From positions 22,371 through 86,370 of the forward strand of contig NZ_LN831788.1 in NCBI RefSeq assembly GCF_001013905.1: 64,000 nucleotides of DNA. The letters run 5' to 3'. This DNA is from Streptomyces leeuwenhoekii (GTDB lineage Bacteria; Actinomycetota; Actinomycetes; Streptomycetales; Streptomycetaceae). A program made the translations under genes and the position numbers. How positions within the stretch are numbered: the first letter of the stretch is position 1; each line of letters starts with the position of its first letter. The notes beneath the pieces are model-generated. The model made no database searches, had not been told where the DNA came from, and saw nothing but the letters and a program-made list of their open reading frames with translations. Shown piece after piece: positions 10,389 through 59,172 of the stretch.

Positions 10389-11054
10389 ATGCCCTCCTCA
10401 GTTCTGGTCATCTCCATCGACCCACAGGGATCCACCCTCTGGTGGGCCGACCGCATCGGTGACGACCTCCCCTTCGACTTCGCCACCGCCCACGACGACC
10501 CCGACAGCCTCAGCAACCTGATCTCCCTCAAGGAATCGGGCGCGAAGGTCCACGTCGTCGCCAACCAGAAGGGCGGGGTCGGCAAGACGACGATAGTGAT
10601 GAACCTCGCCGCTACCGCCCAGGACGTCCTCAAGGCAGGCAACCAGGTACGGCACGTGTTCATCGACACCCCCGGCTCCATCGAGGACGAACGCCTCCTG
10701 ACCGCAGCCCTCGAAGTCGCCGACGACGTGATCGTGCCCCTCCCCCCGGACCCGCTCGCGTTCGACCCGACCACCCGCACCATCGAGAAGGTCATCAAGC
10801 CCCGCGGCCTCCCCTTCAAGGTCATCATCAACAACTGGGACGCCCGCGACGGCAAGACCGACATGCTCGACACCCGAGCATTCGTCACAGCGCAGGGCTG
10901 GTCCCTCGCAGAGACCGGGATCCGCCGGTACCGCATCCACACCCGCGCCCCCGCCGAAGGGAAGCTCGTCACCCACTACCCCGACAGCGGTACCACCCTC
11001 AGAGCCCGCCAGGACTTCCTCAAGCTCGCCCTCGAGCTGGGCTACGGGGGCTGA
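10389..11054 (+). CDS. parA: ParA-type partition ATPase with swapped N-terminal blocks
   Basis: 221 residues from ATG 10389 (GGAG upstream); an in-frame ATG at 10335 is possible. ParA ATPases drive plasmid segregation with ParB and parS. All expected pieces are present but in an abnormal order: ISIDPQGSTLWWADR at 8-22 precedes VVANQKGGVGKTTIVMNLAA at 57-75, and FIDTPGS follows at 91-97. In ordinary ParA the P-loop (KGGVGKTT) is at the N-terminus and the DPQGS strand comes about 30 residues later. Residues 2-52 and 53-86 therefore look exchanged. The rest (VIVPLPPDPLAF, IINNWDARDG) is normal. It is either a real permutation, possibly inactivating, or an assembly fault. Confidence 0.85.
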   Translation: MPSSVLVISIDPQGSTLWWADRIGDDLPFDFATAHDDPDSLSNLISLKESGAKVHVVANQKGGVGKTTIVMNLAATAQDVLKAGNQVRHVFIDTPGSIEDERLLTAALEVADDVIVPLPPDPLAFDPTTRTIEKVIKPRGLPFKVIINNWDARDGKTDMLDTRAFVTAQGWSLAETGIRRYRIHTRAPAEGKLVTHYPDSGTTLRARQDFLKLALELGYGG

Positions 11055-11056
11055 CC

Positions 11057-12082
11057 GTGGCAGGAAAGCGCGTATCCCTGGCCTCCCTCGCCGGGGCCCC
11101 TGTCGAGACCGTGCCCGGCGCCTCACGCCCCGACCTGATCCACGTCCCCCCGAGCACCGTCGCCCCTACCCCCCTCAACCCGCGGCGCGCCTTCGACGAG
11201 ACCGAGCTGGCCGAACTCGGCGAAGACATGCGAGGAGGACAGCTCCAGCCGTGCGTGGCCGTGAACAAGGCCGCCTACCTGAAGCTGTACCCCGAGCACG
11301 CCGACCAGCTGCCCGCTGGTTGCCGGTACGTCATGGCCGCCGGCGAACGCCGCTGGCGCGCCGCCGTCAAGGTCGGCCTCGAGCACCTCGACCTGCTGCT
11401 GCGGCACGACCTCACCGAATCCCGCGTCCGGTTCCTCGCCGCGGTGTTGTCGGAGAACGTGCAGCGCGCCAACTTCAATCCCATCGAGGAAGCCGACGGC
11501 CTGCGTGCCATGCTCGACCTCCACGACGGCAACCAAGCCGCGGCAGCGCGAGCCATGGGCAAGTCGAAGCAGTGGTTCAACCAGCGCATCGGCCTGCTGC
11601 GGCTGACGGATCAGATGGTGCAGCTGGTCCTCGAAGGGAAACTGACTGCGTTCCGCGAGATGCGCCGGTACGCGGCTATGCCGCCGGAGGAGCAGTATGC
11701 AGCGTGGCAGGCGGACCAAGAGCAGCCGCGTCCGCCCAAGCAGCCATCCGTCGAGTTGAACCCGGGGAAGATTGCTGGCACCGTTCAGCAGCAGCAGGCG
11801 TATACCGCGGTATACCCGCCCGCCGACACAGCCGCCGCAGCCTCACCGGCACCGGTCCCAAGCCAGCCAGAGGCCACAGCAGCAGCGGAACGCATCCCCG
11901 AATCACGGACCGCCATTCAGGCGGACACGCCAGCGGCCCAGCCATCAGCGAGACGATTCCCCTACGACGATGGCCTGTCCGCGGGACAACTCCTGATCCA
12001 TAAGATGCCGCCGGCGGAGCTGGAGAAGGTGACCGACATGCTCATTGCTCACCGGGAGAAGCAGACCGCTGGCGTCAGCTGA
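11057..12082 (+). CDS. parB: ParB/Spo0J-family centromere-binding protein
   Basis: 341 residues, GTG start 2 bases after the parA stop. The N-terminal domain contains LNPRRAFDETELAELGEDM and then AAGERRWRAAV, the GERR motif used for CTP binding in the ParB clamp. LSENVQRANFNPIEEADGLRAML and the HTH NQAAAARAMGKSKQWFNQRIGLL follow. A low-complexity Pro/Ala/Gln linker leads to a short C-terminal segment for dimerisation. A parS-like site sits inside the linker coding sequence at 11800-11815. Works with ParA to segregate the prophage-plasmid. Confidence 0.9.
   Translation: MAGKRVSLASLAGAPVETVPGASRPDLIHVPPSTVAPTPLNPRRAFDETELAELGEDMRGGQLQPCVAVNKAAYLKLYPEHADQLPAGCRYVMAAGERRWRAAVKVGLEHLDLLLRHDLTESRVRFLAAVLSENVQRANFNPIEEADGLRAMLDLHDGNQAAAARAMGKSKQWFNQRIGLLRLTDQMVQLVLEGKLTAFREMRRYAAMPPEEQYAAWQADQEQPRPPKQPSVELNPGKIAGTVQQQQAYTAVYPPADTAAAASPAPVPSQPEATAAAERIPESRTAIQADTPAAQPSARRFPYDDGLSAGQLLIHKMPPAELEKVTDMLIAHREKQTAGVS
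11800..11815. promoter_or_regulatory. parS-like palindrome, copy 4 (inside parB)
   Basis: GTATACCGCGGTATAC within the linker-coding part of parB, encoding AYTAVY in the same frame phase as copy 1. An exact 16-bp palindrome inside a coding region is typical of parS sites. Confidence 0.75.
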
Positions 12083-24378: not shown

Positions 24379-24717
24379 ATGTCCGGTCTGCCGCTTGATG
24401 CACGTCTCGCTAAGCTCCGCGCCTTGGAGGAATGGCTGGACTGGCAGCTGAACAACACGCGGCAGAAGATCCGCACCCTTGAAGCGCAGAGGGACCGGGA
24501 ACAGCAGCAGGCGCAGCGGGCGTGGGCGGAGTCCCGGTGGAAGCTGGAGCCGGCCCGGGACCGGCGGACTGTCCTGCACCGGGGCGGGTGCGGGATCTGG
24601 AAGGGCGGGCACGGCTACCTGGATCGGCAGGAAGTCCTGCTCGCGCTGGAGGACGAGACGCTGGCCGTGGAGATGTGCGGGGTGTGCAACCCGGAGCCGG
24701 GGCTGCGGCAGGCCTAG
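24379..24717 (+). CDS. Coiled-coil protein with C-terminal Cys residues
   Basis: 112 residues. LAKLRALEEWLDWQLNNTRQKIRTLEAQRDREQQQAQRAWAE is a strong coiled coil; CGVCNP ends the protein and HRGGCGIWKGG lies before it, perhaps a zinc site. There is no ribosome binding site but a -10 element at the right place. It runs into the convergent Ku gene (4-base overlap). Confidence 0.55.
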   Translation: MSGLPLDARLAKLRALEEWLDWQLNNTRQKIRTLEAQRDREQQQAQRAWAESRWKLEPARDRRTVLHRGGCGIWKGGHGYLDRQEVLLALEDETLAVEMCGVCNPEPGLRQA

Positions 24718-25610
24718 GCGCTGCGCCGCGGTTTCCGGGCCGTATTCTTCGCCGCGGCCTTACGCGCGGGTGCCTTCTTCGCGGTCCGCTTCGGCATCTC
24801 GTGGACCTCGGCCCGCCCGTCGTCACCGCGGGCCTCCCGGGCCTTGGCGACGGACGCGTTAAGTGCGGCCATCAGGTCGACGAGCTGGCCGGTCTCCGCG
24901 GCGGGCTCCGGTACGGCCGGCGGTTCGCGGTTCTCACGCTTCGCTTTGATCATCTCGGCTACGGCTTCCGTGTACGTGTCGCGGAAGTCCGGGCCCGTGA
25001 GCTCCTCCACGGTCATGGTGTCCATGAGGGCCAGGGCGCCTTCGATCTCCTCTTCGGACACGTCGACCGGGGGCGGGGTGAGGGACGCCGGGTCGCGGAT
25101 CTCGTCCGGCCAGCGCATGGCGTGGAGGACGATCGCGTCGTCCCGGACGCGCAGCAGGCCGAGCCGTTCGCGGCCGGACCAGGCGTAGCGGGCGACAGCG
25201 ACACGCTCCGACCGGGCGAGGGCCTGCCGGAGCAGCTTGTACGGCTTGGCGGCGACCTGCCCGTCCGGCTGGAGGTAGTAGCCCTCGGCGATGCGGATGG
25301 GGTCGACGGACTCGAGCGGGATGAACGCGACGATCTCGATGGCTTTCGCGGTCGGCAGCGGCAGGTCGCGGAGTTCCTGGTCGGTGACCGGGACGACGAC
25401 ATCGCGGGCGATCTCGTAGCCCTTGCCGATCTCCGATGGGGAGACTTCGCGGTCTTCGAGCTCGCAGATTTTGCGGGTGCGGACGCGGCCCATGTCGGGC
25501 AGGTGGACGCGGTGGAAGTGGATCGAGTGGTCCTCGGTCGCTGAGACGACGTGAATCGGCACGGTGACCAGGCCGAATGAGATGGCGCCGGACCAGATGG
25601 ATCGGGGCAT
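24714..25610 (-). CDS. ku: Ku-type DNA end-binding protein
   Basis: 298 residues, a typical length for bacterial Ku. It opens IWSGAISFGLVTVPIHVV, then RVRTRKICELEDREV and EKGYEIARD-type sequence, and AMRWPDEIRD, all hallmarks of the Ku core ring. The C-terminus is Lys/Ala/Arg-rich, as in many actinobacterial Ku proteins. Bacterial Ku loads onto DNA ends and recruits LigD for end joining; some mycobacteriophages carry Ku to circularise their genomes. No ligase is seen in the window, so a host ligase would be needed. GTGCAC-17-TAGGCT upstream is a plausible promoter. Confidence 0.93.
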   Translation of the reverse strand: MPRSIWSGAISFGLVTVPIHVVSATEDHSIHFHRVHLPDMGRVRTRKICELEDREVSPSEIGKGYEIARDVVVPVTDQELRDLPLPTAKAIEIVAFIPLESVDPIRIAEGYYLQPDGQVAAKPYKLLRQALARSERVAVARYAWSGRERLGLLRVRDDAIVLHAMRWPDEIRDPASLTPPPVDVSEEEIEGALALMDTMTVEELTGPDFRDTYTEAVAEMIKAKRENREPPAVPEPAAETGQLVDLMAALNASVAKAREARGDDGRAEVHEMPKRTAKKAPARKAAAKNTARKPRRSA

Positions 25611-28992: not shown

Positions 28993-29300
28993 CAGGCACC
29001 GTCCTCTGTGGGCTGGAGGGCGACGTGCGGGTAGGCGCGTACGTGGGCCACGTCCTCGTTGGGGACGCTCTTGCCTCCGAGGGGCCTGGCCGGTGTTTCG
29101 GCCCAGCCAGCGTGGACGCTGGGGAAGACGACGAGCTGGGCGCCTGATTCGATGCACAGGTCGTTGGCGCCGATGATGCGAATTCGGCCTTGGCGGAGGC
29201 AGATGGGATCGTGGCTGATGAAGGCTACGGTGTCGCCTTCGGTGAGGGGGCGGCCGCTGTAGTCGACGGCCTGGGGCTGGGGCGTGTCGCTGGTGGGCAT
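28992..29300 (-). CDS. Hypothetical beta-rich protein
   Basis: 102 residues. YSGRPLTEGDTVAFISHDPICLRQGRIRIIGANDLCIESGAQLVVFPSVHAGW resembles an SH3/KOW-like beta barrel (GDTVAFI...GRIRII). First gene of a five-gene overlapping cluster that follows the PKS terminator. Confidence 0.55.
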   Translation of the reverse strand: MPTSDTPQPQAVDYSGRPLTEGDTVAFISHDPICLRQGRIRIIGANDLCIESGAQLVVFPSVHAGWAETPARPLGGKSVPNEDVAHVRAYPHVALQPTEDGA

Positions 29301-29353
29301 GACTCTACGGTCCCGCGAATTCACGGGCGTCGTTCCCCTGGTTCTGTGCGCGG

Positions 29354-29384
29354 CCCGGCAGCGTGGGGGGGGAGGGCTGCCGGG
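29354..29384 (-). terminator. Terminator of the polyketide synthase gene
   Basis: CCCGGCAGC (29354-29362) pairs with GCTGCCGGG (29376-29384) just after the PKS stop, separating it from the downstream leftward genes. Confidence 0.7.
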
Positions 29385-29390
29385 TCCGGG

Positions 29391-30440
29391 TCAGCTGGCC
29401 CAGGTGCCGTGCAGCGCCGACGTGGTGAAGCCGGGCCCGTACGCCACCATCAGCACACCGGCGCCATCAGCCGGGGCCTGGTCGTGAGTGCGCTCCAGTA
29501 CCCGCAGCACAGCGGGCCCGCCAAGATTGCCTTCCTCCGCGAGCGTGTCCAGGGAGTGCCGGGCGTCGTCCTCGGTCAGGCCGAGAGCGGTCGCGGTGTC
29601 GAGGATGATCGGGCGGGACCCGGGGTGGATGACGGGGACGGTGACGGGCCGGCCGCCGAGCCAGTCGACGACGGCGGGCATCGCAGCACGGGCGCCGCCC
29701 GAGGATTTCTTCGTGGAGTCGAAGTGGAGGCCGTCGGGGTCGATGCGGCCCCAGTAGTAGTCGAGGGAGTCGGGGAGGACGTACTCGTAGAGGTCGCCGG
29801 GGCCGTGGATGGTGAGGCCGGGTCCGGTGGGGTGGGTGGACACGATGGTGGCGGCCGCGGAGTCCCCGAAGAGGGCTTTGTAGATCATGTGCTCGATGCC
29901 TGTATCGCCGTGCTGGTAGCTGGTGGAGAGGACTTCGGCGGCGACGACGAGGATGCGGCCTCCGGGGCGGAGGAGGGCTTGTTCGGTGGCGCGGATGAGG
30001 GCGTGGGCGCCGCCTGCGCAGGCTGCGGAGGTGAGGGCGGTGCGGTGGACGGCGGGGTTGAGGCCGAGCCGGCCCACGAGGTGCACGTCCAAGTTGGGAA
30101 CGGACCAGCCGGTGGCGTGGGTGGTGACGATGCCGGTGATGTCCGCGGGTGTCAGGCCGTGCTGGGTGAGGGCGGTGCGTGCGGCTTCCTCGGCCAGGTT
30201 CAGGGCGTCGTTGAACGCTTGTTGGGTGCGGGCGTGGACGTCGGCGGTGCCGGTGATGGTGTCCGCGGTGAGGGGCTGCGTGAAGTACCGGGACTGGACG
30301 CCGCAGTTGTTGATGACGCGGAGGATCGCGCCGAGCCGCGGGTGGTCGGGGTGGTGGGCGGCGATGTCGTCGGCTATCTCGCTGGTTGTGATCTTGTGCG
30401 GGGCGAGGACGGTGACGGGGCGGGCGACATGGACGGGCAC
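29391..30440 (-). CDS. Type III polyketide synthase (chalcone synthase superfamily)
   Basis: 349 residues from GTG 30440, which has AGGGGGAAG three bases upstream. The thiolase fold carries the complete catalytic triad: Cys141 in TSAACAGGAHAL, His272 in VIHPGSRPIIL and Asn305 in AEEGNLGGPAVL. The C-terminal AYGPGFTT equals the G[FY]GPG loop of the family, and GDSAAATIV and RVINNCGVQSRYF are also typical. These enzymes condense malonyl-CoA onto an acyl starter and cyclise the chain to pyrones, resorcinols or naphthols. The product cannot be predicted by eye. Its own terminator and the adjacent MmyB-like regulator make it look like a self-contained cargo unit. Codon use matches the element. Confidence 0.92.
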   Translation of the reverse strand: MPVHVARPVTVLAPHKITTSEIADDIAAHHPDHPRLGAILRVINNCGVQSRYFTQPLTADTITGTADVHARTQQAFNDALNLAEEAARTALTQHGLTPADITGIVTTHATGWSVPNLDVHLVGRLGLNPAVHRTALTSAACAGGAHALIRATEQALLRPGGRILVVAAEVLSTSYQHGDTGIEHMIYKALFGDSAAATIVSTHPTGPGLTIHGPGDLYEYVLPDSLDYYWGRIDPDGLHFDSTKKSSGGARAAMPAVVDWLGGRPVTVPVIHPGSRPIILDTATALGLTEDDARHSLDTLAEEGNLGGPAVLRVLERTHDQAPADGAGVLMVAYGPGFTTSALHGTWAS

Positions 30441-30574
30441 GGGCTTCCCCCTGGGGTGTGCTGACCTGGTAGGGGCCAAGGTACGGCGCAGTTGGCGTGA
30501 TTGTTTCCCCTGCCGTTCGGTTTCTGCTCGCGCAGCGACCGAAATGCCGGGACAAACCCAGACCCAAGGGGTGT

Positions 30575-31399
30575 CTACTGGGCTTGGAGCATGGTTCGGC
30601 GTGTGGTGGTGCGGCGGGGGCCCGGCCGAAAAATGAGGATCATGAATCGTGATCCGGGGGCGGCCATGGGCTGCGCCACGCACATCGTGACCCAGCCGTC
30701 CCCTTCGGTGGCGTGCCGGATGGGCCGCTCGTCGCCGTCGGGGTGAATGCTCGCGCCGCCGGCTTCGTACAGGGGCCGGGATATGGGGTCGGCGAGGACG
30801 TCGTGCTCGATGTCGCGGAGGACGGTGTCGTCGGGGCGCTGTGCGAGGGCGGCGCGGAGCTGGGGCATGACGAACGGTGCCCAGGCGGTCGCCCAGTCGG
30901 TGAGCTGGTTCCGTCCGTCGAGGAGCATCCACCGCATGGTGTTGGCGGGTGCGCGGCCGCCGTGGAACAGGGTGTGGAACTGCGGGTTGCAGGCGAGGAC
31001 GTTCCAGGAGGCGTCGGTGACGTACGCCATGTGGGTCATGCCGTTGACGGCGTCCTGCCAGGCGCCGGGTACCTGGTCGCCGGAGGTGTCGTACAGGGGG
31101 CCGGGCGGGTCTTCGCCGCGGGCGTACCGGCACAGGGCCATCCATTCCTGTTCGTTGAACTGGAGCAGGGTCGCGATGTCGCGGAGGAGGTCGGCCGGCG
31201 GGTTGGGGTAGGTGCCTGATTCGAGGCGGTGGCAGGTGCCGCGGGCCCGGTTGATGAGCTCGTCGACCTGGTGCTGGGACAGGCCGGGGGCGCGGCGTCC
31301 TTGCCGGTTGGGCCGGGTGAGGCCGTGTGCTTCGGGGGCTATGCGGGCGCGGGCGTCTTTGAGGAGCTTTTTCAGTGCGGGCTTGTCTGGTTTGTTCAC
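30575..31399 (-). CDS. XRE-family regulator with MmyB-like ligand-binding domain
   Basis: 274 residues from GTG 31399. An N-terminal HTH (LSQHQVDELINRARGTCHRLESG) is followed by a PAS-like domain with YVTDASWNVLACNPQFHTLF, MRWMLLDGRNQLTDWATAWAPFVMPQLRAAL and DVLADPISRPLYE. That order matches the MmyB-like regulator ligand-binding domain common in Streptomyces. These regulators are thought to sense fatty-acid-like or other small ligands. Its gene is immediately upstream of the PKS in the same direction, so it probably controls PKS expression. Confidence 0.82.
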   Translation of the reverse strand: MNKPDKPALKKLLKDARARIAPEAHGLTRPNRQGRRAPGLSQHQVDELINRARGTCHRLESGTYPNPPADLLRDIATLLQFNEQEWMALCRYARGEDPPGPLYDTSGDQVPGAWQDAVNGMTHMAYVTDASWNVLACNPQFHTLFHGGRAPANTMRWMLLDGRNQLTDWATAWAPFVMPQLRAALAQRPDDTVLRDIEHDVLADPISRPLYEAGGASIHPDGDERPIRHATEGDGWVTMCVAQPMAAPGSRFMILIFRPGPRRTTTRRTMLQAQ

Positions 31400-31815
31400 T
31401 GGTGTGTTCGTCCCCCGGGGTTGCTGACTGCTCGGCAAGTGTAATTAGTGGGATGGTTTTTAATCCAAAAAATCTTCCGTAGAAAAGAGGTGGGTGTGTG
31501 ATGCATGCTCAGTTCTGCGTGGCGCTGGCCTGCCAGGTTGTTGCTGGTGACCGCGTGGATACACTCGCCGGTAACCTTTGGCCAAAGATTGTTGGGCCGG
31601 TTTGTGAAGGGTTGCAGGCGGGTCCCGGGAACTCCCGGTGGCTTTAGGCTGGTTCGGGCGCCGTTTCCCTTCGGGGAATCGCAGCGCGGCACCCGATCCC
31701 GACCACGAAGTCTTCACGGGGTGTTTCCGGACGGTGCCCGGTCACGGCCGGTGCCCTACCGCCCCACTCCAGGGGCCTCGGCACCGGCCGCCGGCACGCC
31801 CAGGGCCTGTCACGA
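31400..31815. promoter_or_regulatory. Long intergenic region with AT-rich promoter island
   Basis: About 415 bases without a supported gene. At 31437-31490 GC drops sharply; read leftward it has TTGGAT followed 19 bases later by TACACT, a plausible promoter for the regulator gene. GGATGG/AATCC repeats, a CTTTGGCCAAAG palindrome near 31578 and GC-rich hairpins near 31735-31800 are also present, the last a likely terminator for flanking genes. Confidence 0.45.
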
Positions 31816-49155: not shown

Positions 49156-51480
49156 GTGACCACGAACACCCACTCCGCGCCACGCACCGACACGGCGGAA
49201 CGCTTCGCGGCCATCGGCCAATGCGTGCTCCCCGTCGCCACCGGCGCCCTCGCCCCCCTGCTCGACCCCAACGCCACCGCCGCAGCAGGCGCCGCCTACC
49301 TCACCGGCGCGACCTTCATCGGCGCCGCCTACATGGACCGCCTCGGCACCTGGGCGAACGACCTGCCGGGCATGGACATCGTCCGAGCCCACCGCGACAC
49401 CCTCGGCATCTCCACCATCACCACCGGCATGGCCCTCGGCATCGGCGCCTTCGGCGGACCCGCAGCCACCGACGCCCTCATGGCCGGCGCCCTCCAGCCC
49501 ACCACCGTGCCCGGCATCCTCTCCCTCGGCTGGTGGGCCGCCGTCGCTCTCATCCCGCTGAAGCTGCGCCGCGTCCTCGGCCGTAAGCGCCCCACCGCCT
49601 CCATTCCCGGCGCCGCCCCCACCAACCAGACCACGCCCGGCCCGGTCACCCTCGCCGACAAGATCCTCGCCGCGTGGGACGCGCACATCTCCAGCCCCGA
49701 CGGCGGAACCCACCGCCACCAGGTCCTCACTGACGTCACCGTCTACACCGACCGGTGGACGGGACGGATCCTCGCTCCCGCAGGAGCCGGCGTCACCGTC
49801 ACCAAGGAAGCGATCTCCTCCGTCTACAAGGTCAACGCCGGCTGGATCAGCCTCGAGCACGGCGACCACGCCGGAGAAGCCCACGTCACCGTCTCCTACA
49901 ACGCTCCCGCCGAACTCGACCCCAGCACCCTCCAGGGCGCCTGGAAGAAACGCGTCGCCTGCACCGGCGGCACCATGCCCAAAACCCACCTCGAGAACGT
50001 CACAGACGACCCCAACACCGGCGGCCAGGCCGCCTGGGTCGTCGCCGACGACGACATGAAGGGAGCCCTGAAGGCCCCCAACCTGATCGACCTCGCCGGG
50101 GACCTCCGCAAGTCCCCCCTGCTGATCTCCTACGAACCCAACCCCAACAACGTCCGCAAAGCGATCATCCGCGTCATGGACTCCAACCCCCTCGAAACCG
50201 GACACGACTTCCAGGGCCTGGACTCGATGAAGGCGTCCGCAGGCGGATGGTTCCCCATCGGGAAGATCATCTCCGGGCACCCGGCGCGCTTCCAGATGTT
50301 CGACCCCCAACTCGGAGCCCTCCACCTCGTCATCGCAGGCACCACCGGCAGCGGCAAAGGCGGAGCCGTCCAGATCATCTCCCTCGGCTACCACGCCAAC
50401 GGCGCCGCCATCATCTACGCCGACCCCAAAGGCGCCTCCAACCCCGCCATCCCCAAGATGGCCGCCTACTCCGGACTCCAGCGCTACGGCGCCCTCGGCG
50501 CACTCCGCCTCTCCTACCACGTCCTCCAGCACCGCGTAGAAGAGGCCGCCAAGCACGACCTGAAGAACTTCCAGCCCTCCAAGATGCGCCCCTGGTGCCC
50601 CACCATCCTCGACGAAGCCCCCCAGCTCCTCGGCCCCAAAGTTCCCAACCGCGCCGAAGCCGTCCACATCGTCAAGTCCGGAGCCTCCCTGGGCCGATCC
50701 CTCGGCATGCCCCTGGTCCTCGTCACCCAGACCGTCAACCTCGACCAGATGGGCGGCGAACAAGCCATCCGCGCCAACCTCCTCGCCGGCGGCGCCTGGC
50801 TGATCCTCCGCACCGACTCCGACCAGGTCAACCTCGGCGACCTCCCCGCCGGCTTCGAAGGCATCGACCCCTCCCAGATCCCCGCGGTCTGGCCCACCGA
50901 CGACGACTCCCTCATCTACGACCCCGACATCCCCGAGAACGACCCCCGCCGCACCTTCGGCCTGGGCTACCTCGCCGCCCCCGGCGGCCGCGCCGGCATG
51001 ATGCGCATCGACACCCTCGAGGACGCCACCCCCCACATCCGACCCGAACTCGTCGCAGCCCCCGAAGACGTCCCCTGGTGGGGCGACCAAGACGTCATGG
51101 AGGAACTCGCCAACACCCCCCTGCCCGGCTTCGACGAGAAGGGCGACGGCAGCGACGACGATGACCGCGCCAGCGGCCCGGTCATCGCGCCCGGCATCGA
51201 CCTCCAGAAGAAGGAACCCACCGCCGAAGAGAAAATCCTCACTGCACTCCGCGACGAAGCGGACCCCCTCCACCTCGACTACTTGGCCGGCGCCGCCGAC
51301 ATCGACCCCGAAGACTTCGAGACGACCTACGTGGACCGTGCGGCGCTCCTCGCCACGACCGGGCTGAAGGAGGGAACGTTCGCCAACGCCCTCAGCAAGC
51401 TGGAGACAGCCGGGAAGATTCACCGCGTGGCCGAAGGAAGGTCCGTCCGGGTCGGCCTGGGCCCCGACCCGGGGGAGTAG
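49156..51480 (+). CDS. traB: TraB/FtsK-type DNA translocase
   Basis: 774 residues, GTG start. The N-terminal third has hydrophobic segments (TAAAGAAYLTGATFIGAAYM, GILSLGWWAAVALIPLKL) for membrane anchoring. The motor domain has Walker A at 395-402 (GTTGSGKG), Walker B with DE at 486-487 (TILDEAPQLL), and VTQTVNLDQMGG. The C-terminal 80 residues form a winged-helix-like domain (ALLATTGLKEGTFANALSKLETAGKIHRV) comparable to the gamma domain of FtsK and the DNA-recognition end of TraB. In Streptomyces TraB alone moves double-stranded plasmid DNA between cells. It ends just before the late phage operon. Confidence 0.85.
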   Translation: MTTNTHSAPRTDTAERFAAIGQCVLPVATGALAPLLDPNATAAAGAAYLTGATFIGAAYMDRLGTWANDLPGMDIVRAHRDTLGISTITTGMALGIGAFGGPAATDALMAGALQPTTVPGILSLGWWAAVALIPLKLRRVLGRKRPTASIPGAAPTNQTTPGPVTLADKILAAWDAHISSPDGGTHRHQVLTDVTVYTDRWTGRILAPAGAGVTVTKEAISSVYKVNAGWISLEHGDHAGEAHVTVSYNAPAELDPSTLQGAWKKRVACTGGTMPKTHLENVTDDPNTGGQAAWVVADDDMKGALKAPNLIDLAGDLRKSPLLISYEPNPNNVRKAIIRVMDSNPLETGHDFQGLDSMKASAGGWFPIGKIISGHPARFQMFDPQLGALHLVIAGTTGSGKGGAVQIISLGYHANGAAIIYADPKGASNPAIPKMAAYSGLQRYGALGALRLSYHVLQHRVEEAAKHDLKNFQPSKMRPWCPTILDEAPQLLGPKVPNRAEAVHIVKSGASLGRSLGMPLVLVTQTVNLDQMGGEQAIRANLLAGGAWLILRTDSDQVNLGDLPAGFEGIDPSQIPAVWPTDDDSLIYDPDIPENDPRRTFGLGYLAAPGGRAGMMRIDTLEDATPHIRPELVAAPEDVPWWGDQDVMEELANTPLPGFDEKGDGSDDDDRASGPVIAPGIDLQKKEPTAEEKILTALRDEADPLHLDYLAGAADIDPEDFETTYVDRAALLATTGLKEGTFANALSKLETAGKIHRVAEGRSVRVGLGPDPGE

Positions 51481-52063: not shown

Positions 52064-52597
52064 ATGGGATGGTCAAAACTCAAGCAGGACGAAGTCGCCG
52101 TCCGCCGCACCGCGCTGCTGAAGCTGCGCCGCGAAGGCGTCCGCTACGACGACCCGCGCATCGAAGCCCTCGGCTACGCCAGCCCCAACGCCGCCCGCCG
52201 CGACCTCACCCGCGCCCTCGAAGCCCACCGCGACGAAGAAGCCGCCGAAGTCAGCATCTACCGCCAGCAGGAGAACGAACGTCTCGACGCCCTCCTCGAA
52301 GCCGCCTGGCCCCGCGCGACACAGCCGTCCCCGGTCTTCGACAAGGAGGGCAACATCGTCGGCGAGGAACTCGACATGCGGGCCATCGACACTGTCCTGC
52401 GGCTCATGGACCGCCGTGCCAAGCTCAACGGCCTCGACATGCCGGCCAAGACCGAAGTCACCGGCGCCAACGGCGGACCCCTCCAGATGAGCCAGGCCGG
52501 TGACGCCGAACTCGAAGCCATCATGAACGCCGGGCCGGACCCCGCCCCGAACCTTGAGGGCGCCCCCGGCGAACAGCCCGGCGACGGCAGTGGCTGA
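52064..52597 (+). CDS. terS: Terminase small subunit (putative)
   Basis: 177 residues, ATG. RRTALLKLRREGVRYDDPRIEALGYASPNAARRDLTRALEAHRDEEAAEVSIYRQQENERLDALLEAAW shows an N-terminal HTH for DNA recognition and a helical oligomerisation segment. DTVLRLMDRRAKLNGLDMP is frequent in phage small terminases. The size and position directly before terL fit; the stop overlaps the terL start. The protein would recognise the packaging site. Confidence 0.8.
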   Translation: MGWSKLKQDEVAVRRTALLKLRREGVRYDDPRIEALGYASPNAARRDLTRALEAHRDEEAAEVSIYRQQENERLDALLEAAWPRATQPSPVFDKEGNIVGEELDMRAIDTVLRLMDRRAKLNGLDMPAKTEVTGANGGPLQMSQAGDAELEAIMNAGPDPAPNLEGAPGEQPGDGSG

Positions 52598-54116
52598 CGG
52601 CATCCTCGCCCGCTACCGGGCCCTACCCGCCGCCGAGCGCCGCAACATCATCCGTCACGCCTCCGACGACCTCCGCGCCCAGCTCGCCACGCTCGAAGCC
52701 GAAATGGCGATGGACCGATCCCCAGGAGCGCTCGCCGCCGTCCTTACTCACGGGAAGGAAATGCAGGCCCGGCACCTGGACATCATCGACCGCATCTACC
52801 AGCGCATCGCCGCCGGGGAACGCATCCGCGCCATGGTCACCATGCCCCCGCGCGCGGGAAAGTCCCGCCGCACCTCCCGCTGGGGCCCCACTTGGTACCT
52901 GCGCCGTCAGCCCGACCACCGGTTCATGCTCGCCTCCTACGCCGCCCACCTAGCCGACGACCACGGCCGGTGGATACGCAACACGATCACCGAGCACGCC
53001 CCCACGCTCGGCATTCGCCTCAAATACGGGTCACAGGCAGCCAACCGGTTCGACATCGACGGCCACGAGGGCGGCATGGTCACCGCAGGTGTTGGAGGCC
53101 CGCTGACCGGTCGCGGCGCGCACGTTGCCTGCGTGGACGACCCATTCAAAGGCTCCGAGGATGCCGGCAGCCCCACACAACGCGAGCGGGTCTGGGACTG
53201 GTGGCAGTCAGTTCTTCTCACCCGGCTCGAACCTCAAGGGTCCGTCCTCCTCGTGAACACCCGCTGGGACGACGACGACCTCTCTGGCCGACTCCTCAGG
53301 GAAGAACCCGACGACTGGATCGTCATCGACCTCCCCGCCATCGCTCTGTCAGCCGACGACCCCCTTGGACGGAAGCCAGGAGAAGCCCTCTGGCCCGAGC
53401 GGTACAACGCAGACGACTACGCGCGCATCCGGAAATCCGTAGGTGAACGTGTCTGGTGGGCTCTCTACCAGCAGCAGCCCAGACCTCTCGAAGGCGGCGT
53501 CTGGCAGTGGGCTTGGATCACAGGAAACCGCATCAGCCCCGCTGCATTCCGCGGTGTCAACCTCACACGGACCCTGATCGCCATTGACCCCTCCGGTGGG
53601 GCGGGCACAGCCAACGACGAAACCGGCATCATGGCGGCAGCCAGAGACGAGGCAGGAGAGCTGTACCTCTTCGCTGATCACTCTGGCCGGCACGGCGCCA
53701 ACAGCTGGGGACGCGAGGCATGCCTGCTGGCACTCGACAGCGATGCAGACGCCTTCGTTGTTGAGACGAACTTCGGTGGCGACATGACCAGGCAAGTACT
53801 CACCCAGGCGTGGCAGGAGCTGCAACGCGCAGGCAGCATCACAAACCAGCCCATGCCACGGATCATCGAAGTGAACGCCAAGCAGGGCAAACGGCTGCGG
53901 GCAGAGCCGATCGCTCAGCTCTATGAGCAGGGCAGAGTCCACCATGTGGGTGAGTTCGACACTCTGGAACGCCAGATGGTCACTTGGGTGCCAGGCATGG
54001 ACTCCCCAGACCGCATGGATGCTGCTGTGCACGCGCTGACAGAGCTGGCAGACCCGACACAGGCCGGCTTGGGCAGCCAGCAGTACACCGACCAGCGCCT
54101 CAGAGGACGACGCTGA
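52590..54116 (+). CDS. terL: Terminase large subunit
   Basis: 508 residues from GTG 52590. The ATPase motor contains MPPRAGKSRR (Walker A, about 85-94), VACVDDPF (Walker B) and VNTRWDDDD (coupling motif). The C-terminal RNase H-like nuclease shows TLIAIDPSGGAG, AFVVETNFGGD and SPDRMDAAVHAL, the three acidic sites. It cuts concatemers and pumps DNA into the procapsid. Third-position GC falls in the second half compared with the flanking genes. Confidence 0.95.
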   Translation: MADGILARYRALPAAERRNIIRHASDDLRAQLATLEAEMAMDRSPGALAAVLTHGKEMQARHLDIIDRIYQRIAAGERIRAMVTMPPRAGKSRRTSRWGPTWYLRRQPDHRFMLASYAAHLADDHGRWIRNTITEHAPTLGIRLKYGSQAANRFDIDGHEGGMVTAGVGGPLTGRGAHVACVDDPFKGSEDAGSPTQRERVWDWWQSVLLTRLEPQGSVLLVNTRWDDDDLSGRLLREEPDDWIVIDLPAIALSADDPLGRKPGEALWPERYNADDYARIRKSVGERVWWALYQQQPRPLEGGVWQWAWITGNRISPAAFRGVNLTRTLIAIDPSGGAGTANDETGIMAAARDEAGELYLFADHSGRHGANSWGREACLLALDSDADAFVVETNFGGDMTRQVLTQAWQELQRAGSITNQPMPRIIEVNAKQGKRLRAEPIAQLYEQGRVHHVGEFDTLERQMVTWVPGMDSPDRMDAAVHALTELADPTQAGLGSQQYTDQRLRGRR

Positions 54117-54845: not shown

Positions 54846-56738
54846 GTGGGCTGGCTGTCCGGCGCCAAGCAAGTCGTCATCGACGCCTGGTCGTGGCTGA
54901 ACTACAAGCCGATCTACGCCAACGACCGCGGCATCCCCTACCGGCGGGCCTTCCCCGAAGCCAAGGCCACCTGGGTCCCCGCCGCGGACGAGCGGCGCCT
55001 CGCCGCGTACAAGCTCCTCGCCGCCTACGACCACAACCAGGCCGCCGAGCTCGCCGAGGTCCGCGACGGCCCCGAAGCCCGCGAGAGGCGTGAGTTCGGC
55101 GACCCCAGCATGTTCGTCGACACGATCCTCGCCCACGTCCTCGGCCGTGAGCAGCACATCACCGTCCCCGGCGCCGAGAACACCGGCACCACCGGCAGTC
55201 AGGGGGAGTCGGCGGCCGCGATGGCGGAGCGGGTGCAGACCCTGCTGCGGGACTGGGCCGACACCGAGCTGCTGCCCATGCGGATCCAGCAGAGCGAACG
55301 TAAGGCAGTCCTCCTGGGTGACGGCGTGTACCGGCTGGCTTGGGACCCCACCAAGCGCCGCGTCACCGTCCGCTCCGTCGACCCGGGCTTCTACTTCCCC
55401 GTCCTGGAGGAGGACGACGGCGGCGAGTTCCCGAGCCGTGTCCACTTCGCGTGGGAGCTCGCCGAGGACACCCGCCGCGGCCTGAAGGCCCGCATCCGCC
55501 GCATCACCTACGAACTCGCCCCCATCGGCGCCCCCACCTCACCCAGCACCGACACCGACGGCCGGCCCGTGCGCGTGCCGGTCACCGTCGAAGGGCCCGA
55601 AGGCGAGCCGATACCCGTCATCGGCCAGGGCGACACCGTCGACCCGGACACCGGCACGATCACCCGCCTCTACCCGTGGTCCGACACCCCCAGCCCGGTC
55701 ACCTGCTACCTCACCGACGCCACCTGGAACCTCGACGACCTCAAGGGGGACTACGACGTCGACTCCCTGCCGATGGCGAAGGCGTCCTACGCGGTCCGCT
55801 CCGACGGTGAGGTACTGGACCGGCTCGACCTGCTGATCGACTTCCTGCCGGTGATCCACGTCCCGAACACCGTCCCGGACGCCGAGGAGCACTGGGGCCA
55901 GTCCTCCCTGGCGAAGGTGCTGCAAGTCTTCGACGAGCTCGCATCATCGGACACGGACTCCTCCCGCGCCTCCGCCACCACCGGCCTGCCCATGCTCGCC
56001 GTGTCCGGCGTCACCGACTCCCGCTCCCAGATGGCCGTCGAACCCGGCGCCGTGTGGAAGCTCGGCGACACCGGCAAGCTCACCGCGGTCGACACCTCCC
56101 CGGCGCTGCGGGAACTCCGCGAGCACGTCCACGACCTCGCCGACCGCGCGGCGACCGTCGCCCGTCTCCCCGCCGTCGCGCTCGGCACCCTCGACCCGAC
56201 GAAGGCACCCTCCGGATACGCCCTCGAAGTGTCCTTGGGCCCGCTGGACTCCCTCATCGGCAGCATGCGCCTGGCCCGCGACCACAAGTACGCCCTGCTG
56301 CTGAAGATGGTGCAGCGACTCCACCTGGCCGGGCAGCACCCCGACTGGGTCGGCATCACCGTCCAGCCCGCCAAGCTCGTCTTCGGCCCGTACAAGCCGA
56401 CCGACCGCAACGGCATCCTCACCATGGTCACCCTCGGCGTGGAGAAGGGCGTCCTGTCCAAGGAGACCGCCATCCGCATGCTCATCGAGGCCGGCTTCCC
56501 CATCGAGGACGCCGAGGACGAACTCCGCCGGATCGACGCCCGCAGCTTCGATGACGCCCGCGCACTGGCCGACGCGCTCGGCAACGTCGAGGAGGTCGCC
56601 GCGTTCCTCGGCCGGAAAGCCCCCGACGAACCCGAGACGCCTCCTGTGCGACTCCCGCCCACCGAGGACGACGATCCCGAGGACGACGAAGAAGCGCCCG
56701 GACAGGAGCCGCGGGGGAGCAGGGGGAACACGGCGTGA
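54846..56738 (+). CDS. Portal protein
   Basis: 630 residues from GTG 54846, which has GGAGAGGG at good spacing (GTG 54831 is the alternative). It contains an N-terminal helical region, RKAVLLGDGVYRLAWDPTKRRVTVRSVDPGFYFPVLEE (typical of the portal wing), LIDFLPVIHVPN, AVALGTLDPTKAPSGYAL and a C-terminal crown with AIRMLIEAGFPIEDAEDELRRID. The acidic tail (DDDPEDDEE) is usual. Twelve copies form the ring at one capsid vertex through which DNA enters. Confidence 0.88.
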   Translation: MGWLSGAKQVVIDAWSWLNYKPIYANDRGIPYRRAFPEAKATWVPAADERRLAAYKLLAAYDHNQAAELAEVRDGPEARERREFGDPSMFVDTILAHVLGREQHITVPGAENTGTTGSQGESAAAMAERVQTLLRDWADTELLPMRIQQSERKAVLLGDGVYRLAWDPTKRRVTVRSVDPGFYFPVLEEDDGGEFPSRVHFAWELAEDTRRGLKARIRRITYELAPIGAPTSPSTDTDGRPVRVPVTVEGPEGEPIPVIGQGDTVDPDTGTITRLYPWSDTPSPVTCYLTDATWNLDDLKGDYDVDSLPMAKASYAVRSDGEVLDRLDLLIDFLPVIHVPNTVPDAEEHWGQSSLAKVLQVFDELASSDTDSSRASATTGLPMLAVSGVTDSRSQMAVEPGAVWKLGDTGKLTAVDTSPALRELREHVHDLADRAATVARLPAVALGTLDPTKAPSGYALEVSLGPLDSLIGSMRLARDHKYALLLKMVQRLHLAGQHPDWVGITVQPAKLVFGPYKPTDRNGILTMVTLGVEKGVLSKETAIRMLIEAGFPIEDAEDELRRIDARSFDDARALADALGNVEEVAAFLGRKAPDEPETPPVRLPPTEDDDPEDDEEAPGQEPRGSRGNTA

Positions 56739-58119: not shown

Positions 58120-59172
58120 ATGATGCTCGAGGCCCTGCTCAGGGACATCACCCCGACCGAGATCATCGCGTTCGCCCGCGCCGTGCAGACGCCCGCGGAC
58201 TACGCCCTCACCCTGAACGTCATGCCGGAACGGCAGATCCAGGGCGTGAAGTTCCGCACCCGCCGCACGTCCCGCCGGGTCAACGCCGCGAAGTACCGCG
58301 CGTACGACGCGCAGACCCCCGTCGCGTCCCGCGAGGTCAAGCGCATCGAGACCGAGGGCATGCTGCCCCCGCTCGGCCAGAAGTACCTCGTCGGCGAACT
58401 CGAGACGATCCTCCTCGCGGCCCGCCGCGGCGCCGACGCCTCCGAACTCGTCGAGGCGCTCTACGACGACGTGGCCGCCCACGTCCTGTCCATCCGGTCC
58501 CGCCTGGAGCTGGCCGCCGGCGACCTCCTGACCGACGGCAAGTTCACCCTGGCCAACGAGAACGGCCTCACCGTCGAGTACGACGCCCAGGTCCCCGCGG
58601 CCAACATGCCGACCGCCGCCGTGCCGTGGACGGACCCGACCGCGGACGCCATCGCCGACGAACTCGCCTGGCTGGAGACGCTGCGCGCCTCCGGTGCACC
58701 GATGCCGGAGAAGGTCGTCACCTCCTACAAGGCCCGCGCGCTCCTCGCCGCGAACAACGCCTACCGCGCCGCCTACTACGGGTCGGTGAACCCCTCCAAC
58801 ACGCCGACCGCCACGCTGGCCCCCAACGAGGTCGACACCGTCCGCGCCCGCTACAACCTGCCGCCCATCGAAATCTACGACGTGCAGATCCCCAAGGACG
58901 ACGGCACCATGGCCCGCCCGATCCCCGAGGACCGGTGGGTGATGGTCCCGCCGAACCGGCAGCAGTGGGGCGAAACCCAGTTCGGCATCACCGCCGAATC
59001 CATCGAGCTGACGACCGGCGACAACCCGGCCATCGAGCTCGCGGAAGCGCCCGGGATCATCGTCACCCACGGCTGGAAGGACGACCCGGTCCAGGTCTAC
59101 ACCAAGGGCTCGGCCGTGGCGATGCCGGTCCTGTACGTGCCGGACATCCACATCACCGCGAAGGTGTTCTGA
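58120..59172 (+). CDS. Major capsid protein (gpE-like)
   Basis: 350 residues. TPADYALTLNVMPERQIQGVKFRTRRTSRRVNAAKYRAYDAQTPVASREVKRIETEGMLPPLGQKYLVGELE is the E-loop and N-terminal region of the phage major capsid protein E family, and the C-terminal half has the P and A domains of the HK97 fold (MPVLYVPDIHITAKVF at the end). It pairs with a gpD-like decoration protein. Forms the icosahedral shell. Confidence 0.92.
   Translation: MMLEALLRDITPTEIIAFARAVQTPADYALTLNVMPERQIQGVKFRTRRTSRRVNAAKYRAYDAQTPVASREVKRIETEGMLPPLGQKYLVGELETILLAARRGADASELVEALYDDVAAHVLSIRSRLELAAGDLLTDGKFTLANENGLTVEYDAQVPAANMPTAAVPWTDPTADAIADELAWLETLRASGAPMPEKVVTSYKARALLAANNAYRAAYYGSVNPSNTPTATLAPNEVDTVRARYNLPPIEIYDVQIPKDDGTMARPIPEDRWVMVPPNRQQWGETQFGITAESIELTTGDNPAIELAEAPGIIVTHGWKDDPVQVYTKGSAVAMPVLYVPDIHITAKVF

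Follow-up and report, generated by a model that had tools for sequence, protein, structure and literature searches.

What use would a phage have for a secondary-metabolite enzyme? The question is raised by a 64,000-nucleotide stretch of Streptomyces leeuwenhoekii DNA, referred to here as the window, which spans bases 22371-86370 of an 86,370-bp contig in a genome of three contigs (8,122,491 bases). It carries a gene for a type III polyketide synthase (PKS) and a regulator gene together with phage and plasmid partition genes. The replicon is taken to be pSLE1, which is circular and whose type III PKS was already recorded as 59% identical to pZL12-100, with neighbours that gave no sign of a natural product cluster (PMC4487206). 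Type III PKS genes on actinobacterial plasmid prophages have likewise been recorded (PMC10023795). The kind of system is thus already known; new here are its distribution, with the pair emerging as a common cargo of ZL12-type phage-plasmids, and the co-divergence of its two genes. Very probably the pair is an orthologue of the violapyrone genes vioB-vioA (vioBA) that makes violapyrone-type pyrones, with a regulator serving as repressor and as sensor of the pyrone or a precursor, and forms a mobile, selected cassette acting as a moron. A literature search found no paper linking violapyrones with phage-plasmids, within a coverage in which the term violapyrone itself was unsearched and subscription papers, the pZL12 paper included, were mostly absent.

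Synthase, regulator and predicted product

The cassette consists of two genes (window coordinates are used throughout, unless a record is named):

29391..30440, minus strand: type III polyketide synthase, VioA-type, predicted alpha-pyrone synthase; 349 aa, GTG start, TGA stop, catalytic C141/H272/N305
30575..31399, minus strand: MmyB-like (MLTR) regulator, VioB-type, with a helix-turn-helix (HTH) and a PAS-like ligand-binding domain; 274 aa, GTG start

An earlier interpretation of this DNA, the sequence-only reading, had described a chalcone-synthase-type enzyme with Cys141, His272, Asn305 and a GPG loop beside an MmyB-type regulator, and both assignments hold. The synthase is a complete open reading frame (ORF) that scores 83.3 bits against Pfam Chal_sti_synt_N (cutoff 27) and 21.9 bits, under the cutoff of 27, against Chal_sti_synt_C. 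C141, H272, N305 and the GPG at 335-337 are invariant across 38 aligned relatives, and the AlphaFold2 model has a mean predicted local distance difference test score of 93.1. With its C-H-N triad, its Chal_sti_synt domain and an MLTR/XRE regulator directly upstream on the same strand, the gene has the layout of a vioBA-type unit. The regulator passes the curated cutoffs for both MLTR_LBD (49.0 bits, cutoff 26.3) and HTH_31 (31.0 bits, cutoff 27), which places it in the MmyB-like (MLTR) family; no solved chain matched it at E <= 0.001, the single chance match standing at 0.69. In two genomic loci (L067 and L068) the synthase is flanked on its other side by an additional, divergent MLTR regulator (~11146-11928, minus strand; 46% identity to that of pSLE1). 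Control of the cassette by bldA was dropped as a candidate: TTA codons occur in 2/56 synthases (both cases one duplicated record) and 2/56 regulators, and in neither gene of pSLE1.

Kinship to the violapyrone genes was measured through the pCQ3 and pCQ4 proteins rather than through VioA's own sequence. The synthase is 63.4% identical to pCQ3.110c over 350 aa and the regulator 65.9% identical to pCQ4.19c; these proteins are given as 95% identical to VioA and VioB, respectively (PMC4924298). In S. somaliensis SCSIO ZH66, vioB-vioA lies on a circular plasmid of ~85 kb and makes violapyrone alpha-pyrones. Deletion of vioA abolished violapyrone B and deletion of vioB raised it ~8-fold, making VioB a negative regulator (PMC4924298). 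By orthology, the pSLE1 synthase would act alone, condensing a beta-ketoacyl thioester from fatty-acid metabolism with (methyl)malonyl-CoA and releasing 4-hydroxy-3-methyl-6-alkyl-alpha-pyrones of the violapyrone type. The genetics of VioB suggest that the pSLE1 regulator would repress the synthase. The sequence-only reading had guessed at a quinone or a pyrone; the pyrone agrees with the predicted product.

Database names point elsewhere, to a resorcinol, phloroglucinol (PhlD) or tetrahydroxynaphthalene synthase (THNS). Such an activity is very improbable: the near orthologue VioA is a genetically proven pyrone synthase (PMC4924298). The pSLE1 enzyme also misses the NCBIfam equivalog cutoff for DpgA (dihydroxyphenylacetyl-CoA synthase) by a wide measure (85.7 bits against 425). 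Furthermore, Ala109 and Tyr187 align with two cysteines that have a role in THNS. This suggests that the database labels 'PhlD' and 'tetrahydroxynaphthalene synthase', among others, are wrong for the family.

Distribution on phage-plasmids and in genomes

The phage-plasmid location proposed by the sequence-only reading is confirmed by the following genes, to which profile matches add a replication initiator gene:

52590..54116, plus strand: terminase large subunit (phage context; phrog_38, 336.8 bits)
54846..56738, plus strand: portal protein (phage context; phrog_64, 64.9 bits)
58120..59172, plus strand: major head protein, the marker for related phage-plasmids (phrog_29, 195.8 bits)
10389..12082, plus strand: ParA and ParB partition genes (plasmid context; phrog_164, phrog_4715)

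pSLE1 has the terminase, portal and major head genes, together with ParAB on a circular replicon of ~85-95 kb, that mark a ZL12-type Streptomyces phage-plasmid. ParA proved too mobile to serve as a marker of the plasmid family, with matches in 125 plasmid records that extend to Rhodococcus and other genera, and was rejected; 72,556 plasmid records were searched with the pSLE1 major head protein. Forty-one matched, and the first 33, at 46% identity or more, were taken as the related set (32 of 84-95 kb, one of 152 kb). Synthase and regulator are both present in 25 of these 33 plasmids (24 among the 40 matches listed, plus Kitasatospora CP108485) and both lacking, at E <= 0.001, in the other eight; neither gene occurs alone. 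The regulator lies upstream on the same strand in all 25 (positions compared by eye), and phage ZL12 also has the pair. Among the 25 records, identity to the pSLE1 proteins correlates between synthase and regulator (rho 0.88) and not between synthase and capsid (rho 0.24), which indicates that the pair travels as one cassette on a mosaic background. To look for a third cassette gene, ORFs of at least 80 aa were clustered across 58 loci; among the 25 widest clusters, none apart from the pair extends to more than 19 loci, and the wide ones track chromosomal synteny.

The cassette-equivalent site was inspected in two of the eight pair-less plasmids, pSAM1 and NBC_01723. In both, a putative zinc metallopeptidase gene stands at the equivalent spot, near a DUF6233 gene (NZ_CP109172, 41055-41834; NZ_CP012383, 26142-26909), with relatives on 13 Streptomyces plasmid records in all. 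It was rejected as an alternative module for the site because the family also occurs on plasmids having the PKS.

Beyond plasmids, 49 loci were found in GTDB species genomes, of which three remote matches were set aside and 46 kept (L030-L075; one belongs to Streptacidiphilus and the rest to Streptomyces). At 42 of these loci the regulator lies immediately upstream, the exceptions being L039 (at a contig edge), L070, L072 and L073. A capsid match is present in nine of these genomes, all nine with the pair, and absent from 37; at 33 of the 46 loci the pair stands in a genome without that capsid. The 10-kb flanks of presumed chromosomal loci hold no recognisable pSLE1 gene, and those of plasmid or viral loci hold 1-19, save one (L088). 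Across 295 Streptomyces genomes, the window's own included, the PKS was found in 30 (E <= 1e-70) and the capsid in 37 (E <= 1e-60). In 16 of these 37 the capsid lies more than 200 kb into its contig, hence on a large replicon, and none has a PKS nearby at E <= 1e-70; three (G305, G326, G330) carry such a PKS elsewhere, either on a different contig or at a distance of megabases. The contrast between 25/33 capsid-related plasmids and 0/16 large replicons gives Fisher p = 2.2e-7, in a test that ignores relatedness and possible weaker PKS relatives.

The tree of the synthase comprises 74 proteins, with relatives drawn from the best 120 of 406 matches. Contigs of 84-95 kb and two plasmid records of 102 and 108 kb were labelled plasmid-size and those above 110 kb big, a labelling by size that may misplace draft contigs; a further 51 rows, from contigs outside these sizes, were excluded along with two short proteins. 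The tree needs 9 changes between plasmid-size and other rows (24.7 on average after shuffling), and its supported branches demand no fewer than 8 of them. Four proteins from plasmid-size contigs, the pSLE1 enzyme among them, form one set (98% support in the Shimodaira-Hasegawa-like approximate likelihood ratio test), nested in a set of 23 rows of which 12 come from large contigs. This mixing implies that the cassette has probably been swapped several times between phage-plasmids and chromosomes. Ratios of nonsynonymous to synonymous change of 0.05-0.48 for both genes in 10 locus pairs indicate purifying selection in all, the pSLE1-clade pairs lying at the upper end (0.28-0.48). Held by purifying selection, the two genes would thus shuttle together between chromosomes and the ZL12-type phage-plasmids of Streptomyces.

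These data also bear on the idea that a single plasmid recently picked up a gene of its host's chromosome by accident. Relatives on long Streptomyces contigs at ~75% identity would suit such an origin, which is nevertheless barely credible and is rejected. Each of the three further type III PKS matches in the host genome shares 28-29% identity with the pSLE1 enzyme (one is 75% identical to the 1u0m THNS chain), the tree neighbours of the pSLE1 PKS among the matches listed are plasmid-size contigs, and the pair is on 25/33 related plasmids. Neither circumstance that the sequence-only reading had tied to such a capture, a recent host copy or the lack of related copies on other phage-plasmids, is found, and homologues beside the same regulator are present on other phage-plasmids. 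Its idea of a phage-specific pathway fails: the pair is often found at Streptomyces loci that have no phage genes in their vicinity, and these loci are interleaved with plasmid-size contigs in the tree.

More distant synthase relatives (43-47%) occur on larger Streptomyces plasmids (L091, from S. anulatus NZ_CP109342, and L092-L094). They stand beside an ScbR-type autoregulator receptor, or near an XRE regulator, a metallo-beta-lactamase (MBL)-fold hydrolase and FabG, and look like richer, signalling-type clusters. Two records named 'Staphylococcus phage' (OR849884, OR844991) hold a synthase-like match, 25% identical over 88% of the query, that is perhaps host DNA in the record.

Regulation, ligand sensing and role

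Three conserved or putative control elements accompany the genes:

31438..31447, minus strand: TAATTACACT, conserved -10-like element of the inferred regulator promoter (alignment of loci)
31457..31486, minus strand: 30-bp conserved element upstream of the regulator, putative operator, with a lone occurrence in the whole replicon
30474..30516, minus strand: conserved block in the regulator-synthase gap, putative synthase promoter (by eye, alignment of 13 group-A loci; function inferred)

The sequence-only reading had pictured a self-contained unit of regulator with an AT-rich promoter, synthase and terminator. Regulator, synthase and AT-rich region (GC 0.48 at 31400-31499 against 0.69 for the window) stand as a two-gene unit, and the terminator is not confirmed: the scan of the window found no minus-strand hit downstream of the synthase within 29200-29390. 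Its three hits (1.0 +/- 0.9 expected) include one on the minus strand, at 30655-30637, inside the end of the regulator. The 30-bp element and the -10-like sequence are conserved in 27 aligned loci, plasmid and chromosomal, of the 56 with the pair. A matrix of the 30-bp element finds one site in the 86,370 bp of pSLE1, at 46.9 bits (this site being included in the model), and the next, unrelated site at -0.4; built from the regulator's own promoters, the matrix could let weaker or different sites escape. A palindromic operator was considered and set aside, generic palindrome statistics not being significant, and an exact 16-bp palindrome occurs upstream of the regulator only in L043 and L086. 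The 30-bp element is retained as conserved rather than as a proven dyad.

What the regulator might sense is suggested by its family. The MltR crystal (PDB 3pxp) contains myristic acid, which resembles an alkylpyrone in general shape, with a polar head and an alkyl tail, and MmyB, the founding member of the family, is described as responding to furan signals by switching its genes on (PMC3406030). From these precedents, the PAS-like pocket of the pSLE1 regulator would most likely read the pyrone or its acyl precursor. Across 53 loci, divergence of the ligand-binding domain follows that of the synthase (rho 0.85) more closely than divergence of the HTH does (rho 0.60), a gap of 0.25 (bootstrap 0.15-0.38). 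The gap persists, with the ligand-domain value at ~0.81, after matching the number and conservation of sites. Gene proximity does not account for it: the pattern is the same in either half of the ligand domain, and in the synthase the correlation is stronger for the far half than for the near one. Together with the family structure, this co-divergence hints at product sensing, and makes it plausible that the ligand domain senses the pyrone or an acyl precursor.

Several observations weigh against the reading of the pair as a violapyrone-type, product-sensing cassette. At 63% identity the choice of starter or extender may differ (A109 in the pSLE1 synthase is S in pCQ3), and the repressor role of VioB might not carry over to the pSLE1 regulator. 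The 30-bp element does not recur, by matrix search, in the regulator-synthase gap, and generic palindrome counts upstream of 35 regulators are not above shuffles (mean 5.46 against 5.21 of 8). Much of the co-divergence gap lies between groups. It is 0.11 (bootstrap 0.03-0.34) within the 15 loci of plasmids or viruses, which include L021 from a Kitasatospora plasmid, and 0.10 (0.04-0.18) within the other 38; shared phylogeny makes the distances non-independent, and the HTH could owe its divergence pattern to its own operator. Finally, the PKS match in CP042280, which belongs to the 25 plasmids, is split into five pieces, perhaps through breakage or faulty assembly.

For the phage, the product could be an autoinducer of phage-plasmid carriers with the regulator as its receptor, coupling lysogen density to phage or host behaviour as an alkylpyrone analogue of arbitrium. 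The sender-receptor gene layout and the ligand-domain co-divergence fit this idea, as do the alkyl alpha-pyrone signals of Photorhabdus (photopyrone/PluR, PMC4578411), the furan-activated MmyB (PMC3406030) and the distant PKS relatives with ScbR-type receptor or XRE regulator, FabG and MBL-fold hydrolase. It is unlikely all the same, as the promoter element is single in the replicon and no other phage gene is an evident target, 8/33 related plasmids manage without the pair, and 33/46 genome loci have it in genomes without that capsid. In an arbitrium-like system the regulator's site would recur at other phage genes; its single site makes the circuit look local, which speaks against a direct role in lysis-lysogeny, though weaker or different sites may have escaped the matrix, and the lysogeny signal suggested by the sequence-only reading finds no direct support. 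A more ambitious version, quite unlikely as it stands, is that ZL12-type phage-plasmids run a non-peptide communication in which each reads its own alkyl alpha-pyrone through a co-evolving MLTR receptor, kin carriers being told apart by side chain and host antagonism, development or phage release tuned to them.

Alternatively, the product may serve purely as a chemical weapon or shield, in the form of an alkylpyrone whose antibacterial action aids lysogens, with a regulator answering unrelated cues such as fatty acids. This is a real possibility, if not the one we would expect. Violapyrones inhibit methicillin-resistant Staphylococcus aureus (best minimum inhibitory concentration 25 ug/mL; PMC4924298), a solitary PKS suffices for the product, and the family crystal structure holds a fatty acid (PMC3406030); however, the activity is weak, and the co-divergence of ligand domain and synthase exceeds what a constant fatty-acid cue predicts. 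As a moron, or cargo, the cassette would probably alter the chemical interactions of the lysogen, as a weak antibacterial and/or a cell-to-cell cue, and not act as a phage lysis switch.

A chemically characterised pair, published without mention of phage, is thus found on 25/33 capsid-related plasmids and not near that capsid in 16 large-replicon genomes. The vague question of what secondary metabolism offers a phage becomes tractable here: the compounds have been identified, one such pair has already been knocked out, and the ligand of the regulator is open to direct assay.

Neighbouring genes and known systems

Other genes of the replicon and its relatives deserve a brief record. A Ku-like DNA end-binding protein is encoded at 24714-25610 (minus strand; phrog_4873, 219 bits), and ATP-dependent DNA ligases are annotated on the related plasmids pCQ4 and that of NBC_01664; with the Ku-like protein these form a possible phage-borne end-joining set. 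An FtsK/SpoIIIE-like protein lies at 49156-51480 (plus strand; weak phrog_1358 match). pCQ4 has annotated traA/traB, and such phage-plasmids may also conjugate. In the rest of pSLE1, ORFs judged by eye from their translations resemble a ThyX-type thymidylate synthase (L008:12986-13885, minus strand) and a collagen-like Gly-X-Y repeat protein (L008:12197-12964, plus strand).

Among known systems, germicidin synthase Gcs (PDB 3v7i) is a chromosomal enzyme of S. coelicolor (sco7221; PMC4573997), and the pSLE1 synthase is 27% identical to the printed parts of its chain. Cpz6, the presulficidin synthase of the caprazamycin cluster, is reported to yield presulficidin A, which is violapyrone B, as VioA does, at 53% identity to VioA and in another gene context (PMC4924298). 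The regulator shares with the MmyB/MltR family (PDB 3pxp, PMC3406030) an Xre-type HTH and a PAS-like MLTR ligand-binding domain above the Pfam cutoff, but VioB acts negatively whereas MmyB is described as turning genes on (PMC4924298, PMC3406030). On phage-plasmid ZL12 (GQ919031), a circular replicon of ~90 kb, pZL12-99/100 likewise place the regulator before a type III PKS, with 59% PKS identity. ZL12 differs in a strong terminator-like hairpin after the regulator (shuffle z-score -3.8), a longer regulator-synthase gap and another capsid branch (54% major head protein). The vioA-vioB pair of S. somaliensis SCSIO ZH66 is likewise a two-gene unit of type III PKS and XRE-family regulator on a circular plasmid of ~85 kb (PMC4924298). 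It differs from the pSLE1 pair by ~35% in sequence, with product and repression in pSLE1 predicted by orthology, and its description (PMC4924298) is silent on phage in its text, whereas pCQ4 bears terminase, portal and capsid genes.
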